Shown here piece after piece: positions 6,041 to 35,314 of a DNA stretch of 35,314 nt. Source of the DNA: a virus; the IMG/VR virus record IMGVR_UViG_3300017739_000040, positions 1 through 35,314 of that record. The stretch is one strand, 5' to 3'. Position 1 is the stretch's first letter. Each line of letters begins with the position of its first letter. The translations under genes were made by a program, and so were the position numbers. Below the pieces are notes generated by a model, which was not told where the DNA came from, ran no database searches, and saw nothing but the letters and a program-made list of their open reading frames with translations.

Positions 6041-6949
6041 TTATGCGCCCGGTGAACCGAACACAGCGCGTGGGTCGCTATAGCCGAAGCTGTAACGCTC
6101 ACGAGCCTTAAAGCGCATGTTGCCTGAATCAAAGTCAGCTTCCATGTTGGTCGCCAAAGGCGCACGCTCAAAGTGCTTGAAGCCATTTGGAGCGTCTGTC
6201 TTGATGAAGAACGCATCTGGGTCTGTCAGGAAGTGGTTAACAGTGTAACCCTCTGGCAGCATGCCCATGTTGCGAATTGCGTTCACATCGTTGTCGGCTG
6301 TGCCAACGCGGAGTGTGGACTCAAGCAGACGATCAGCAACAAACTGAAGCTGTGGTGGAATGATCAACTTCATGCCACGCAGGGCAATGATCAAGTTCCG
6401 CTCATCAACGAATGTTGAGATGTCAATCAAGGCATTCTCAAGCGATGTTTCGTTAAGGTCAGCAGCAGTTGATGGCTCATTGCGGAAAGTACCGCCACCA
6501 GCAAGTGGGTGATCAGCTGCACAAAGCTCTTTACCATCGCCACCAGCAAACGAGCTGTTAAAGGCGTTGTTCAGAGTTGCAGCAGCTTTTACCTGCTTGG
6601 TGTGTGCCATTGAACGTGCGAGTGCGCGGGTGTACCGTGCGCCCAGACGATCATACAGGTTGTCTTCCATTGCTTCCTCAGTCAACGCAAACGCAAGAGT
6701 GATTGTCTCATGCGAATAACGTGCTGTGTAAGCTTCTGAAGCGTTGTCAAAGTTAACAGCAGCGCCCTCTGCTTTAGTTTGGGCGTTACCAAAACCGACC
6801 AACATTACCTCTTCTTCAAATGCACGATCTGAAGATTCTGTTTCGTAGATCTCTGCATGCTCCGCATCGTAACGGTCATACTCCATACCAAACAGGGCGT
6901 TGAGGCCGGGTTCTAGCTCTTTCGCTAGTTGTGCGCGAGAAATAGCCAT
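6041..6949 (-). CDS. Major capsid protein (HK97-fold, Mu gpT-like)
   Basis: 302 residues. The protein contains EIYETESSDRAFEEEV near the N-terminus, then ETITLAFALTEEAMEDNLYD, ADHPLAGGGTFRN and IIPPQLQFVADRLLES, the order seen in Mu-type major head subunits. It sits last in the head operon, after scaffold and co-chaperonin and before a strong terminator, as expected for a coat protein. Residues 5-21 (RAQLAKELEPGLNALFG) recur exactly in the early winged-helix protein at 34072-34422. GAGG or GGAGG lies before the ATG. Confidence 0.9.
   Translation of the reverse strand: MAISRAQLAKELEPGLNALFGMEYDRYDAEHAEIYETESSDRAFEEEVMLVGFGNAQTKAEGAAVNFDNASEAYTARYSHETITLAFALTEEAMEDNLYDRLGARYTRALARSMAHTKQVKAAATLNNAFNSSFAGGDGKELCAADHPLAGGGTFRNEPSTAADLNETSLENALIDISTFVDERNLIIALRGMKLIIPPQLQFVADRLLESTLRVGTADNDVNAIRNMGMLPEGYTVNHFLTDPDAFFIKTDAPNGFKHFERAPLATNMEADFDSGNMRFKARERYSFGYSDPRAVFGSPGA
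6869..6937 (-). repeat. Coat protein N-terminal peptide shared with early regulator
   Basis: Encodes coat protein residues 5-27. The first 17 residues are identical to residues 23-39 of the 116-residue protein at 34072-34422, and the next six (MEYDRY versus AEYEKY) are conservative. Of the 17 identical codons 13 differ, all synonymously. Confidence 0.9.
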
Positions 6950-7557: not shown

Positions 7558-8022
7558 CTAATTGTCAGCTACCCCTTTGGGTCCACCAAAGGACACAGAG
7601 GAGCTACGTTGCGGTTTAAGCTTTGGCATAGAGGCGTTTGATTCTCTCATCCAGTCTCTATCCACAGCTTCCATTTGATTGTTTGTAACATTCTGATAAT
7701 GAGAGTTACGTTGATCCGCGATTTCTTCTGGCATTCTGGCTAGAACCAGACCACCAACACCAATCACGCCAGCGTTCTTTCCCTCATCAATGACGGGGGC
7801 ATCAAAGTCAGGGTAGTCTTCTGCCCTAACAAGTTCCCAACCTTCACGGCGGCGCTTATGCACGTTGTTGCGGTCATCATATTCCATGACTGACTCACGA
7901 ATCCAACGATGCTTATAACCAACAGGTGCTTCTGGAGCCTCAAGGGTTGAAGCTGGACGCCAATCTGCTACTCTCGCTTGATTTTCACGGGTTTGCGAAT
8001 CCCGGCTTGCACGATCAGACAT
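7558..8022 (-). CDS. Unknown head-operon protein
   Basis: 154 residues, charged and with little secondary-structure bias. It contains GYKHRWIRESVMEYDDRNNVHKRRREGWE and later a polar region ending PQRSSSVSFGGPKGVADN. The KHRW...W pattern is frequent in phage proteins between scaffold and coat. No enzymatic motif. The start overlaps the scaffold stop by one base (TAATG). It may be a capsid assembly accessory; the function is unknown. Confidence 0.55.
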   Translation of the reverse strand: MSDRASRDSQTRENQARVADWRPASTLEAPEAPVGYKHRWIRESVMEYDDRNNVHKRRREGWELVRAEDYPDFDAPVIDEGKNAGVIGVGGLVLARMPEEIADQRNSHYQNVTNNQMEAVDRDWMRESNASMPKLKPQRSSSVSFGGPKGVADN

Positions 8023-8957
8023 TACGCTTCCTTCCTTTCCAGTTTAGCGACCTCTTGAGCATACCGTTCCAGAGGAATTTTCATTTTCTTGGCAAAAGCC
8101 ACTTGACCCGGCGTTAATTCCACCGTCTTTTTCCGCCCACTTTTGGTAGCTGACCGTCCGCTGGACGCAGGAGTAACGGCTTGGGCGTTTTGCCGCTTCC
8201 CCTGAAACTTGTGCGGAAACTCTTGACGCATACGCTTGTCAATTTCCGCATAATATTCATCTGTTGTTGGGTCAAAACCTTCACCAGCAACAAGTTGCTC
8301 GTGGATGGCTTGTGCGCCACGGGTCATAACAATATCGCCGTTGTTGCCAAACCAAGGGTTTTTTCCCATCCAATTTACAAGCTTTTGATCGTACTCAGGC
8401 TGCCGTTGCGGTTGCTGAACCTGCTGTGGCTGCGGTTGCTCTGCTTCAACCGACTCAGAGCGAGCCTTCTGAATGCGTAACCGCTCCTCTTCGATGGCAA
8501 GCTTTGCAATAACCTTTTGAGCCTCTGCAACTTTACCCATGTCGCCAGCATCGTATGCTTCCTGCAACATGCGTTGAGCCGCTTGACCTTGGCTTTCAAT
8601 TCTTGACCCATACTCACTGATGTAGCCTTTATCCAGATCGGAGAGCTTTTTCTTCATCTCCTCGTTCTGTTGCTGCACCTGTTGAGCATAGGCGTAAGCA
8701 GCCTCGGCTTCCTCGATGGCCTGCTTACGCTTTGCTGTTAACTGATTAATGCGCTTTTGAACATTGTCACTATAGTTTTCTAGCTCATCTTCGTCAGCGC
8801 TGTTTTCAGAATCACGAACAATTGTTCGGTTTTCTTCTTTTTCGGAAGATGCGGAAAGGTCTTCAGGCGATGCAACATTGTTGTCATCGTCAAAATCAAA
8901 AGACACAGTTTCCTGCTGATCTTCTGCCATTGCTTCTTGATTTTCGTTCATGCTCAT
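8022..8957 (-). CDS. Capsid scaffolding-like protein
   Basis: 311 residues from the ATG at 8957, chosen because GGGAGA lies just before it; a second ATG at 8951 is equally possible. The N-terminal 70 residues are very acidic. A long coiled coil follows (QKRINQLTAKRKQ through KLAIEEERLRIQK), then a Gln/Pro-rich linker and a basic C-terminus with GRKKTVELTPGQVAFAKK. An acidic start, coiled-coil middle and basic tail before the coat gene is the usual make-up of phage scaffolding proteins. The basic end would bind coat protein. Confidence 0.7.
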   Translation of the reverse strand: MSMNENQEAMAEDQQETVSFDFDDDNNVASPEDLSASSEKEENRTIVRDSENSADEDELENYSDNVQKRINQLTAKRKQAIEEAEAAYAYAQQVQQQNEEMKKKLSDLDKGYISEYGSRIESQGQAAQRMLQEAYDAGDMGKVAEAQKVIAKLAIEEERLRIQKARSESVEAEQPQPQQVQQPQRQPEYDQKLVNWMGKNPWFGNNGDIVMTRGAQAIHEQLVAGEGFDPTTDEYYAEIDKRMRQEFPHKFQGKRQNAQAVTPASSGRSATKSGRKKTVELTPGQVAFAKKMKIPLERYAQEVAKLERKEA

Positions 8958-8967
8958 GTCTCCCACA

Positions 8968-9447
8968 CTATACATATGAAATATCTGCTGGGTCAAGTAT
9001 TGTTGCTATAATATTGTCGTCATTGATAAGTCTTACCTCTAAACCATCAACTTTGAACCTATTACCTGCGTATCTTCCCATTAACACCCATGATTTCTCA
9101 TGGCACCACGCTCCTGAAGGAAACTTGTTAGCATCCATATATGCGTCAGGGCCGACTTTAACTACATAAGCGGCAACAGTTGCAAAGCTCTCACGCTCAC
9201 GAACTGAATCAGGAATAATGATTCCTCCAGCCGACTTCTGTTTCATGTAATAAGGAATAACAAGCAAGCGATAACCAACAGGTTGCGGCAATCGCTCAAT
9301 AGCAGAAAGATCCATCTGTGATGGGTCTTCGGTGTTTTTTTGATTTGAGTCTTCGGGTTGATTAAAACCTTTTTTGATAGCCGCTGGTACTTCGCTGACT
9401 TCAGGTTTCTTAGCCATCCTCTCAGGGACGAATAGTTTTTTAGCCAT
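8968..9447 (-). CDS. GroES-like co-chaperonin
   Basis: 159 residues. After a variable N-terminus of about 55 residues, the protein has the Cpn10 pattern: LPQPVGYRLLVIPYYMK, KSAGGIIIPDSVRERE (mobile-loop region), then AAYVVKVGPDAY and VLMGRYAGNRFKVDG, ending DDNIIATILD. Cellular GroES is about 95 residues, so this one has an added N-terminal arm. It stands directly before the scaffold gene, as expected if it serves coat folding like T4 gp31. Partnering with host GroEL is inferred. Confidence 0.85.
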   Translation of the reverse strand: MAKKLFVPERMAKKPEVSEVPAAIKKGFNQPEDSNQKNTEDPSQMDLSAIERLPQPVGYRLLVIPYYMKQKSAGGIIIPDSVRERESFATVAAYVVKVGPDAYMDANKFPSGAWCHEKSWVLMGRYAGNRFKVDGLEVRLINDDNIIATILDPADISYV

Positions 9448-21380: not shown

Positions 21381-21416
21381 TGTTTTGTTCCTATTGTTTT
21401 GTTGTCGTTGTCATAA

Positions 21417-21453: not shown

Positions 21454-21467
21454 CGCACAATTGTGCG
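21454..21467. promoter_or_regulatory. Perfect 14-bp palindrome CGCACAATTGTGCG
   Basis: Seen directly in the amidoligase upstream region. It shares the ACAATTGT core with the palindrome at 21572-21585 but has different arms. Candidate operator. Confidence 0.45.
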
Positions 21468-21571: not shown

Positions 21572-21585
21572 CGAACAATTGTTCG
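21572..21585. promoter_or_regulatory. Perfect 14-bp palindrome CGAACAATTGTTCG
   Basis: Followed on the plus strand by GGG. Near copies CGAACAATTGTACGGG occur at 22654 and 23250, each in the same position of a linker between terminator and promoter. The GAAC-N4-GTTC form resembles the LexA/SOS box of Gram-positive bacteria. Confidence 0.5.
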
Positions 21586-22578: not shown

Positions 22579-22653
22579 CCATAAAAATGGGAAAAAATAA
22601 AAAAAACTTTGAACCCTCTCGGAACTCCAGGCGCAGCAGAAACACGAACAATT

Positions 22654-22669
22654 GTACGGGAAGACTCCC
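22654..22669. promoter_or_regulatory. Linker motif CGAACAATTGTACGGG
   Basis: Same 16-mer as at 23250-23265 and one base different from the 21572 palindrome. It lies between the terminator and promoter Pc in the 214-base gap 22521-22734. Confidence 0.5.
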
Positions 22670-23249: not shown

Positions 23250-23265
23250 CGAACAATTGTACGGG
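23250..23265. promoter_or_regulatory. Linker motif CGAACAATTGTACGGG
   Basis: Identical to the motif at 22654-22669. It is followed on the plus strand by TTGCGCTGCAAAAAA leading into the terminator, closely similar to the layout near 21572. Confidence 0.5.
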
Positions 23266-32152: not shown

Positions 32153-32400
32153 GTTTCTTCGTCCCCTTCCATACGGCTAAAGCCTATGATGTACATAATG
32201 CTGTCGCCAAAATATATTTCTGCTTCCCCGTCCACAAGCATATTATCATAACGCTCTATATAATCAGTAATAGCGTCCATAACACATTCGTGTACCTCTT
32301 CTCCGTCATTAGGGTCTTTTACTTGCACAAAACAAGATATGTCAATTTCGGTATCATCAATCAGATTCAGCTTCACTTGCAAGTTGCCTCTGTTCATCAT
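32110..32400 (-). CDS. Small acidic protein, unknown
   Basis: 96 residues, acidic (ERYDNMLVDGEAEIYFGDSI, GFSRMEGDEETWGIATAEG). Beta-rich appearance. Begins inside the helicase 3' end (44-base overlap). No family recognised. Confidence 0.5.
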   Translation of the reverse strand: MMNRGNLQVKLNLIDDTEIDISCFVQVKDPNDGEEVHECVMDAITDYIERYDNMLVDGEAEIYFGDSIMYIIGFSRMEGDEETWGIATAEGTITLH

Positions 32401-34075
32401 TTATGGCTTTCTGAGCTACGTCATTGACATATGCGTCAATAAATCTTTTGTTCCAAATATAATTAAGCATACACGCCGCTTTATATTTAGTCCACGAGAA
32501 GTCAAAAGCGCCTACATGCACTCCGTGCTTATTTAACTGAGCGCGTTGTTTTTCGCTTACACGATCATTAAGCCAACGCTTACTTTTCTTAGCGCTATCG
32601 CTATTTTCATTCACCCTCATAAAGTCATCAGCCGCTGCCATCACTTGTCTTGTGCTTCCGATGCTGATTATCCTAACTCTACCATCATTCTTTTTAACCA
32701 AGGCAACAGAAGCGCATGTTGTCTCTGCCACCAAAGAAAACCCATTGAACCCAGATGATGACCAACAAGATCCTGTGCCAAACAAATCAATCCAACGGAA
32801 TGGTGACCGCTCCATAAGATCCACTTCAGTAAGCTCAAAGGACTCAAGATCCTCTAGCGGCATCTTCTCGCCATCTTGCGCTTCATAGCCGCAGATAGGG
32901 CATTCTTTTGCAGATAAAGGAATTGAGCTACCGCACCCGGCGCAATCTTTTTTGGGCTGATCACCGTTTAACTCACCGCCATCAAGATTGACTAGATCAT
33001 CCAAAGATCCATGAGTAAGAACCGATGTGCCAAAGTCCATGACAACACAGTTATCTTTAATGACATCAGGGAACTCTTCCTGATCAATCGTGCGTAAGCC
33101 TCGACCAATCATTTGCACCATTGTAGCTTTATACGAACATGGGCGAGTCAGCATGACACACGACACAGGCGGGGCATCAAACCCCTCTGTAAGCACAGCA
33201 ACATTGACTACAACTTCTATATCTCCATGAGCCAATTCATGTAAGATCTCTTCACGTTCATGGCTTGGAGTGTCCCCAGTTACAGTAGCGGCCTTTACAT
33301 TGGCATCAAGGAACTCTTCACATAAATCTGTTGCATGTTTAATTGTTGAGCAGAACACAATTGTTTTTCTATCGGGCGCTCTTTCCGCCCACTCTTCCAC
33401 AACTCTTTTGTTGATAGCGCGGCGGTTCATAATTCGCTCGACCGCTTCCATATCAAAGTCTGCAACAGTTTTGCGAACACTCCGCAACTCATCCTGCACA
33501 CCTACATCAATCACATATGTTTTGGGCGGAACCAGAAACCCTTCATTGATTAGAGTAGAGATTTCAATCTGGTGGCTACAATTGTTAAATACGTCCCGCA
33601 AGCCCTTCTTATCACCACGGTTAGGGGTAGCGGTAAAACCAACTACTTGCACCCCCTCATTGGCCTCTTTTGCGGCCTTAATGATACGTTGATATGTATC
33701 GGCAATAGTATGATGCGCTTCATCGACAACAATCATGTCAACGTGCGGCATTTGCGCTAGATTCTTCTCACGAGATAGAGTCTGCACCATTGCGAATACA
33801 GCGTTGCCTGACCAATCCTTTTGTGAAGCATTGTAAAAACTGCTAGTAAGATTTGGATTGACCTTATGAAATTTACTGGAATTTTGTGAAACTAATTCAT
33901 CACGATGCTGAAGAATTAGAACATTATCATTTTTCTTATATCGCTTGCCCACAAGTGCGGACAGCATAATAGTCTTGCCAGCCCCAGTAGGAGCCACGAC
34001 AAGCGTGTTGCCATGTTTGTCTAAAGCGTCAGAGGCGGCATTAATAGCCGCCTCTTGGTATCCGCGCAAAATCAC
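32357..34075 (-). CDS. SF2 DEAD/DEAH-box helicase with zinc ribbon
   Basis: 572 residues. GYQEAAINAA (Q-like motif), Walker A APTGAGKT (28-35), DEAH (118-121), GFTATPNR (motif III region), then the second domain with NVAVLTEGFDAPPVSCVMLT and QMIGRGLRT (motif VI). A zinc ribbon CAGCGSSIPLSAKECPICG lies near residues 375-395. Relatives (UvsW/RAD25-like) act in recombination and replication restart. It overlaps the winged-helix gene by 4 bases and lies in the same operon as the Cas4-like nuclease. Confidence 0.88.
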   Translation of the reverse strand: MILRGYQEAAINAASDALDKHGNTLVVAPTGAGKTIMLSALVGKRYKKNDNVLILQHRDELVSQNSSKFHKVNPNLTSSFYNASQKDWSGNAVFAMVQTLSREKNLAQMPHVDMIVVDEAHHTIADTYQRIIKAAKEANEGVQVVGFTATPNRGDKKGLRDVFNNCSHQIEISTLINEGFLVPPKTYVIDVGVQDELRSVRKTVADFDMEAVERIMNRRAINKRVVEEWAERAPDRKTIVFCSTIKHATDLCEEFLDANVKAATVTGDTPSHEREEILHELAHGDIEVVVNVAVLTEGFDAPPVSCVMLTRPCSYKATMVQMIGRGLRTIDQEEFPDVIKDNCVVMDFGTSVLTHGSLDDLVNLDGGELNGDQPKKDCAGCGSSIPLSAKECPICGYEAQDGEKMPLEDLESFELTEVDLMERSPFRWIDLFGTGSCWSSSGFNGFSLVAETTCASVALVKKNDGRVRIISIGSTRQVMAAADDFMRVNENSDSAKKSKRWLNDRVSEKQRAQLNKHGVHVGAFDFSWTKYKAACMLNYIWNKRFIDAYVNDVAQKAINDEQRQLASEAESD

Positions 34076-34422
34076 GATGGATTCCGATACTTATACGCAG
34101 AGATTTTTTTGTCGTACTTTTTTGTAATCAAAAAACCAGCCTTACGCAATTGACTCATTTCGTGAGCAACAGTGCCTTTAGTTTTGCCCAAACGCTTCTG
34201 AAGCTGGCTCAGAGTGTAAGGTCTGCCACTTTCCATGATAGCGCGTAACGGATCGCAATAACGTGGGTGCTTACGTTTTTTGTTTGAATATTTTTCATAT
34301 TCAGCACCGAACAGAGCATTCAAACCCGGCTCCAATTCTTTAGCTAATTGCGCTCTAGTGTAGCCTTTTTGTTTTTTTGGTTCTTGCAAACCAAAGATTG
34401 ATTTAAAAATTCTTCCTAACAT
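34072..34422 (-). CDS. Winged-helix protein carrying the coat protein N-terminal peptide
   Basis: 116 residues in three parts: a basic amphipathic start (MLGRIFKSIFGLQEPKKQKG), the peptide RAQLAKELEPGLNALFG at residues 23-39 followed by AEYEKY, and a winged helix-turn-helix (about 55-113) reading PLRAIMESGRPYTLSQLQKR, GTVAHEMSQLRKAGFL and ITKKYDKK. The central peptide is the same as residues 5-21 of the major capsid protein. The gene is early and upstream of the helicase. It probably binds DNA and contacts whatever recognises the coat peptide; both statements are inference. Confidence 0.75.
   Translation of the reverse strand: MLGRIFKSIFGLQEPKKQKGYTRAQLAKELEPGLNALFGAEYEKYSNKKRKHPRYCDPLRAIMESGRPYTLSQLQKRLGKTKGTVAHEMSQLRKAGFLITKKYDKKISAYKYRNPS
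34288..34356 (-). repeat. Early copy of the coat protein peptide
   Basis: Codes for residues 23-45 of the winged-helix protein. Compared with 6887-6937 of the coat gene, 16 of 51 bases differ over the identical 17 residues, all silent. Confidence 0.9.
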
Positions 34423-34431
34423 TGCGACCTC

Positions 34432-35061
34432 CTATTTAGCCCAAGACGGCGTCACAGTAGCCGAAGCATTGTGTACCGTTGGTTGTTGCGGTGCGGCGGC
34501 AACTGGTGCCTGTGCCATAGGCGCAGCGGCTGGCGTTGTCATTGTTTGACCACCGATAAAGCCTTTGGAGTCTGCTGTAAGAACATACTTAATCTTGTTC
34601 TTATCGGCATACCCATTAGTGCCTTTCTCAACTCCAATGGAAAAACATACGCTCATTCCATTGAGATCACTAACCCCATTCAAGCTACGCGCCTGTTGTG
34701 CTTGCGGAGATTCGTCTTTGGACGATAGGTTAAACGCACTATCAACCATGCTCTTCAACATGCGAAGACCAATCTCTTTGGCAACAGGAATGCCACGTTC
34801 TGACAGCTTGTCGCCGTCAACAAAAACATTATGCCAGATCTTACGCTTGTCAAAAGAACCACCAACGATGGTCATTTCAACAGGTAGCCATTTTGCGCTT
34901 GTTGATTGTGACGACTTAAAATACTGCCCCGCACCGAACTCAGGCAGCTCAACATCACCACCAGTAAGTTTAACAATGCCACGAACAACCGTGCCATCTG
35001 GGATCAGTTCCAGCGGAGTGTTATCGTATTCTGCTGGTGCTACGTTATTTAGGTTAAGCAT
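34432..35061 (-). CDS. DUF669-like protein, candidate ssDNA-binding protein
   Basis: 209 residues from the ATG at 35061, chosen because AAGGAG precedes it and the longer frame would overlap the previous gene heavily. Contains NNVAPAEYDNTPLELIPDGT, VRGIVKLTGGDVELPEFGAG, then WLPVEMTIVGGSFDKRKIWH and ISIGVEKGTNG-like late parts. The pattern resembles DUF669 proteins, which appear next to recombination genes in phages. The last 40 residues are Ala/Pro/Gln-rich, like the tails of single-strand binding proteins. The ssDNA role is inference. Confidence 0.6.
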   Translation of the reverse strand: MLNLNNVAPAEYDNTPLELIPDGTVVRGIVKLTGGDVELPEFGAGQYFKSSQSTSAKWLPVEMTIVGGSFDKRKIWHNVFVDGDKLSERGIPVAKEIGLRMLKSMVDSAFNLSSKDESPQAQQARSLNGVSDLNGMSVCFSIGVEKGTNGYADKNKIKYVLTADSKGFIGGQTMTTPAAAPMAQAPVAAAPQQPTVHNASATVTPSWAK

Positions 35062-35314
35062 TTGTTTCTTCTCCTTCTGCAATAACCACTTCACTAGGAT
35101 TGACAAACGCCATTGGTCTGTCAGCTTGCGCCGTACCTGCGGACATTTTTTCCAAAAGTTTTCCGAGATGCGGCTCTTCAATCATATCCAACCGACCACT
35201 ACGATCCTTGGCTGGATAATTCCATTTGTTTAGAGTCTGGCAAACGAAGGCGCGGAACTGTTGTCCTTCTTCGCTTGTCATTGTTGTCATTGTGATCACT
35301 TCATCAACAATGCC
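35054..35314 (-). CDS. Unknown protein, probably partial at right edge
   Basis: The frame is open to the right edge. Possible starts inside the window are GTG 35299 and ATG 35290 or 35281 (MTTMTSEEGQQF), none with a clear ribosome site, so the true start may be outside. Visible: FRAFVCQTLNKWNYPAKDRS, IEEPHLGKLLEKMSAG. It overlaps the DUF669-like gene by 8 bases. I do not recognise the family. Confidence 0.5.
   Translation of the reverse strand, partial: GIVDEVITMTTMTSEEGQQFRAFVCQTLNKWNYPAKDRSGRLDMIEEPHLGKLLEKMSAGTAQADRPMAFVNPSEVVIAEGEETNA

Follow-up and report, generated by a model that had tools for sequence, protein, structure and literature searches.

A peptide of 17 residues (RAQLAKELEPGLNALFG) that lies in the N-terminal arm (N-arm) of the major capsid protein occurs again, unchanged, in a small winged-helix protein encoded by the same genome, and across viral contigs it is found in about 80 non-coat genes (that of the window counted) of about 19 architectures. 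The window is the whole stretch of DNA that was analysed, a virus record of 35,314 bases; the non-coat proteins that bear the peptide are called carriers here, and the peptide within them the tag. The explanation we favour, whose chances we put at about evenly balanced, is that the peptide is the docking helix of the coat N-arm and has been reused as a portable tag for docking in head assembly.

Two copies of one peptide in the window

Comparison of the translations bears out the preliminary description of this DNA, which had reported that all 17 residues are identical and that 13 of the 17 codons differ between the copies, by 16 nucleotides, all of them silent. It had also called the next six residues conservative, which holds for most of them: MEYDRY of the coat and AEYEKY of the carrier share three identical residues and two conservative exchanges, but the M/A pair is not conservative. 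In a blast-type comparison the second place of the peptide in the window genome has E = 1.7e-9, and a DNA pattern for the peptide has 0 matches in 100 shuffles; the identity is therefore not due to chance. A recent DNA copy of the 5′ end of the coat gene is ruled out by the 16 silent differences. Because the coat N-terminal peptide is near-invariant across hundreds of coats and its codons are very different, the silent differences point to long separate maintenance or to transfer. Judged from the codons, transfer could be from another coat lineage, and divergence inside the window genome is not necessarily implied.

The carrier of the window reads MLGRIFKSIFGLQEPKKQKGYTRAQLAKELEPGLNALFGAEYEKYSNKK... 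in translation and sits in the DNA-replication block, with the phrog_2300 gene on one side and the helicase, whose start it overlaps, on the other; because of this position it is called a probable early protein. Its winged-helix domain scores 24.3 bits against Pfam HTH_5 (cut-off 22), is predicted by AF2 at pLDDT >90, and matches MarR/ArsR-type winged-helix folds in the PDB with probability near 1 and E no better than 0.014. The protein thus resembles ArsR/MarR-type regulators in its winged-helix domain, by Pfam and by predicted fold, but differs from them in its amphipathic leader and inserted coat tag, and has no sensor domain. The tag and its flanks (residues 23–45) form one helix in the AF2 prediction.

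The coat protein has the N-terminus MAISRAQLAKELEPGLNALFGMEYDRY. Its AF2 model has a helix at residues 5–20, but with a mean pLDDT of only 52, and no solved structure of the window coat was found by sequence profile; because the model is poor, the role of the N-arm here rests on homology of position. Isolates keep the head-gene order portal, GroES, scaffold gene, two genes, coat, and the GroES-like gene lies directly before the scaffold gene in the window and in every isolate checked (L389–L395).

Table 1. Positions of features in the window, and types of carrier in other contigs
Feature	Location	Strand	Basis or remark
Major capsid protein, Phage_capsid_4 / phrog_371	6041..6949	-	Pfam and PHROG
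Coat N-arm peptide, residues 5–21 (RAQLAKELEPGLNALFG)	6887..6937	-	Alignment; source and twin of the tag
Scaffold protein, phrog_28737	8022..8996	-	Position and coiled-coil composition
Scaffold C-terminal motif ELTPGQVAFAKKMKIPLERYAQEV...	8025..8120	-	Well conserved; serves as tag in carriers of other phages
GroES-like co-chaperonin, head module	8968..9447	-	Pfam Cpn10, 1.6e-10
Palindrome CGAACAATTGTTCG, sites	8815–8828, 21454–21467, 21572–21585, 22645–22658, 23250–23263		
Downstream DEAD-type helicase	32357..34075	-	Pfam and PHROG
Tagged winged-helix carrier, 116 aa	34072..34422	-	Translation; GTGA overlap with next gene
Winged-helix domain, residues 52–116	34075..34269	-	Pfam, AF2 and PDB matches
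Coat-like extension AEYEKY, six residues (coat: MEYDRY)	34288..34305	-	Alignment
Tag, residues 23–39, RAQLAKELEPGLNALFG	34306..34356	-	Identical to coat residues 5–21
N-terminal amphipathic leader MLGRIFKSIFG	34390..34422	-	Alignment; kept in tagged and untagged relatives
Upstream replication-block gene, phrog_2300, SSB-like tail PSWAK	34432..35181	-	PHROG; putative role
Another winged-helix protein	L345		Same layout as the window carrier
Excisionase-like HTH proteins	L129, L346 and others		C-terminal membrane helix
HTH-like proteins	L230 and others		Two repeats and a membrane helix
Small HTH-like proteins	L124, L246, L256, L327, L358		Tag at or near the C-terminus
HTH-like region, tag, then DUF3310	L242, L348		
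HTH-like region, tag, then DUF6378	L135, L243		
Basic-tailed carrier family	L231–L262		
Carriers with no recognised domain	L121, L143, L312, L326		

Carriers and their relation to the coat

The peptide has the pattern R..L.KEL.PGLN.LFG, and the collection scans that recovered it were built to skip the start of the coat. The viruses concerned are a widespread, mostly aquatic group that infects bacteria. Outside the tag most, though perhaps not all, of the carrier architectures (families F1–F19 of the family table of this analysis) appear from their sequences to be unrelated; DUF3310 and DUF6378 each occur twice among them. The tag may be N-terminal, in a linker or C-terminal, often next to a helix-turn-helix (HTH) domain, and it is internal or C-terminal in most carriers, being N-terminal only in F17 and in the doubtful F19. 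HTH domains were assigned by curated Pfam cut-offs in three carriers (window, F8, F16), by weaker Pfam or PHROG matches in four (F2, F7, F15, F18) and by eye in the remainder. With the tag set aside, the median net charge per 100 residues is +6.2 in carriers and −3.2 in the genes of the window (p = 6e-7). From this charge, and from the HTH matches in several carriers, the cargo is basic and probably DNA-associated in type.

Two further loci were observed in these contigs. A 335-residue protein at L326:4426-5580 starts with the coat tag (MITRKQLLKELLPGLNKLFGLKYRR) and is encoded on the strand opposite the coat operon. At L453:9743-10945 there are three adjoining coiled-coil paralogues with differing C-terminal ends, the middle one ending in the coat N-arm tag. 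The acidic protein of L320 (57 aa) may be a broken coat and is a doubtful carrier, and the oxygenases of L313, L318 and L321, together with L314, L335, L344 and L349, match the relaxed pattern in what looks like chance. Bacterial origin, or mimicry of a host protein, was rejected, as 84,980 genomes gave 0 strict matches and chance matches only.

Selection on the peptide in both proteins, which the preliminary description had proposed, finds support in the substitution pattern of the carriers. In family F3 the tag has dS 0.47 and dN 0.01 (dN/dS near 0.02). Among distinct carrier tags, position 1 is R in 23 of 26 and position 13 is N in 25 of 26, and these two positions had been left free in the relaxed scan. 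By this measure the carrier copies are under purifying selection.

The history of the winged-helix family can be followed across contigs. In the viral contigs L001, L081, L082, L090 and L093 the tag is followed by the coat-like extension; in L083 and L084 what follows the tag is different and shorter; and L085–L087 and L099–L111 have the same leader and winged helix with no tag, these untagged contigs being fragments that do not include a coat gene. Comparison of the tags of the window and L083 shows six silent changes over 17 codons and 0 residue changes, whereas the residues right after the tag are replaced. Because SAHQGK takes the place of AEYEKY in L083 and L084, the extension is under a different constraint than the tag. 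The tag of L090 matches that of the window at 50 of 51 nucleotides, and its last 51 codons match those of the untagged L101 at 148 of 153. On these identities L090 is a recombinant that retained the tag; to judge from the family as a whole, the tag is gained, lost and moved as a unit by recombination and is intact wherever it is present. The preliminary description had held that winged-helix relatives lacking the peptide would make a functional link unlikely. Such relatives do exist, so the tag is an accessory of this one family; the wider link between coat and carriers is not weakened, because the tag recurs elsewhere.

One coat and exactly one carrier are encoded on each of ten linked contigs (G001, G024–G028, G030, G044–G046), as in the window; G046 is probably complete, since it is terminally redundant. 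In the ten contigs the carrier copy and that of its own coat are 10–18 nucleotides apart and only 0–4 residues apart, and coat and carrier lie on opposite strands in 8 of the 11 linked pairs. Covariation of the two copies, which had been put forward earlier as a check, tends towards a positive outcome. All 8 coats that have E at position 9 of the peptide are accompanied by E-type carriers, and all 3 coats of the L type by non-E carriers. Counted by carrier family these make 6 independent pairs (p about 0.07), so that the covariation is suggestive only. No carrier was found in 24 coat-bearing contigs, which have the coat copy only, or in four isolates that have the coat peptide (HTVC023P, HTVC027P, DSL-LC04 and 023Pt_psg01); the function of the carrier must therefore be dispensable, which counts against docking.

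It is conceivable, if extremely unlikely, that the tags are functionless pieces of head genes recombined into small early genes. The recombinant and the tag-less winged-helix relatives are of the kind that such mosaicism would leave. Neutrality would not account for the same 17 residues in about 19 architectures, for the low dN/dS of F3, or for carrier copies that differ from their own coat at many nucleotides but few residues, and the codon evidence strongly disfavours it.

Other head-assembly peptides borne as tags

The N-arm is not the only part of the head that is borne in this way. Profiles made from consecutive segments of the head proteins were run against all open frames collected, with three further finds, of which two are arrays of paralogues. 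In array A (L312, L323, L324, L342) three adjoining paralogues have one N-terminal domain and three different C-terminal tags: the scaffold C-terminus (E 5e-10), coat residues ~97–130 (E 2.5e-6 to 9e-4) and the coat N-arm. The array is located at L342:337-3619 and L324:3166-6322; a fourth member has the tail LITAASxTxDALAILA, and one form has a glycine-rich tail. The fourth paralogue with the tail DGVALNSVSHP gave no significant match to coat residues ~138–148 (HMM E 9–35).

Array B (G012) consists of paralogues whose shared domain differs from that of array A and whose tags are N-terminal: the scaffold C-terminal motif (1e-8), the coat helix (7e-8) and, as a weak match (E 0.015), the coat C-terminal stretch RYTFGWSDPR. 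The same contig also bears an N-arm carrier elsewhere. At L453:3397-5007 four paralogues of array B share a C-terminal LxxLWxxRFGxxWV domain, the fourth having the N-terminal tag MATYAINAATTATTPY... A single protein of L353 combines an HTH-like region, a scaffold segment of phrog_28737 (8.7e-12), which is the family of the window scaffold itself, the coat tag and DUF3310. In 47 records no scaffold or coat-helix tags were found beyond arrays A and B and, for the scaffold piece, L353.

The use of several assembly peptides as tags argues more strongly than any other evidence that the tag has its partner in the head-assembly machinery, and not in some unrelated hub. A shared docking site, one of the meanings that had been offered earlier, gains support from the ~19 architectures and from the coat-helix and scaffold segments on paralogues and in the fusion, so far as sequence can speak to it. 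The coat-helix and coat C-terminal tags are, however, parts of the HK97 core fold with no obvious scaffold-binding surface, which argues against docking.

The peptide might instead be a ligand for a third partner needed by coat and carriers alike, a phage or host hub such as the phage GroES-like protein with GroEL. The window and all isolates checked do have a GroES-like gene in their head module, which would suit this explanation. We nevertheless consider it quite unlikely: a chaperonin ligand would not account for tags taken from the scaffold or from other parts of the coat, and the motif was not found in bacterial proteins, and hence is not a copied host ligand.

The arrays might also be read as a broad set of inhibitors, since they put several head pieces on one domain. 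Tagged proteins would then act as dominant-negative fragments, either slowing head assembly of the phage itself or poisoning that of co-infecting relatives or satellites. This is very unlikely in our estimation, as the carrier and a matching coat occur in the same genome in the ten linked contigs and in the window, which would amount to self-poisoning, and one arm of 17 residues predominates as the single tag.

The main rival to docking, although an unlikely one, is that the tag serves as a sensor of assembly state. Free coat or scaffold would compete for the tag on a DNA-binding regulator, or bind through it, and transcription, early or late, or replication would in this way respond to the levels of head proteins. 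Consistent with such feedback, at least seven carriers have HTH-type matches, of varying strength, and carriers lie in replication blocks, mostly on the strand opposite the coat. Several carriers, in contrast, have no DNA-binding domain, and F2 and F8 have C-terminal membrane helices. Palindromic operator-like sites in the window would also fit a regulator, though not necessarily the carrier.

The palindrome CGAACAATTGTTCG occurs in the window at 13 sites with ≤3 mismatches, against 1.9 expected, with exact copies at 21572 and, within the scaffold gene, at 8815; its form suggests an operator to which a dimeric regulator would bind. Between positions 21400 and 23700 there are repeat-rich stretches of CCCGAA type in the gaps between short genes, and repeats of 15–22 nt at spacings of about 605 and 1,100 bases.

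Proposed docking at the procapsid, and known systems

If the tag is a docking helix, a plausible course of events can be outlined. The coat arm would meet the C-terminal domain of the scaffold, as in P22, and a carrier with the same arm would attach, at the procapsid, to the scaffold or else to the coat lattice. Most commonly, a small DNA-binding carrier would be incorporated into the procapsid and would then accompany the genome, first in the virion and later into the next cell, like the internal proteins of T4; in the window the cargo would be the winged-helix protein.

In P22 the C-terminal helix-turn-helix of the scaffold is anchored on the coat N-terminal arm (PMC9965877). The likeness lies in the use of a coat N-terminal helix as the scaffold docking site (PMC9965877), docking here being proposed by analogy; the C-terminus of the scaffold is also well conserved here, and serves in its own right as a tag. 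The P22 N-arm has been described on the coat alone, whereas here it is spread across many early proteins. In T4, internal proteins of diverse kinds are brought into the core of the scaffold by a conserved capsid-targeting sequence, and for one of them injection in order to protect the DNA has been described (PMC3012670). The internal proteins IPI, IPII and IPIII resemble the carriers in that one short peptide is found on diverse basic, DNA-associated, phage-encoded cargo (PMC3012670). The T4 targeting sequence is not described as a copy of the coat N-arm (PMC3012670), unlike the present tag, which does copy it. It is also an N-terminal leader that the prohead protease cleaves off, whereas the tag here is mostly internal or C-terminal. 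The capsid-hijacking proteins of satellites, such as P4 Sid and SaPI CpmB, are small and act through coat or scaffold surfaces. The present carriers instead share a genome with the coat, which they would mimic and not, like those proteins, use to redirect capsid size.

A wider and tentative proposal, possible but doubtful, is that these phages use a peptide code. Early DNA-binding proteins would bear copies of the coat N-arm, a coat helix or the scaffold C-terminus for use in head assembly, so that early proteins bound to DNA and the growing procapsid recognise each other and genome, gene control and head building are coupled; in some phages sets of paralogues would each present a different assembly peptide. 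No description of the motif or of such a tag system was found in the literature searched, the coverage of which was incomplete. The spread of a coat N-arm over many early proteins is apparently undescribed, as far as we have found, and the mechanism would add a variant to the known ways of capsid targeting.

The phages concerned are very abundant and poorly studied, and include pelagiphage isolates. If the tag docks carriers on the procapsid, sequence alone names hidden candidates for virion-packaged or assembly-linked proteins, the action of small early proteins of unknown function becomes directly testable, and a ready handle of 17 residues is at hand for loading cargo into these heads. If its role is instead regulatory, the tag would connect head assembly directly to the control of early genes.
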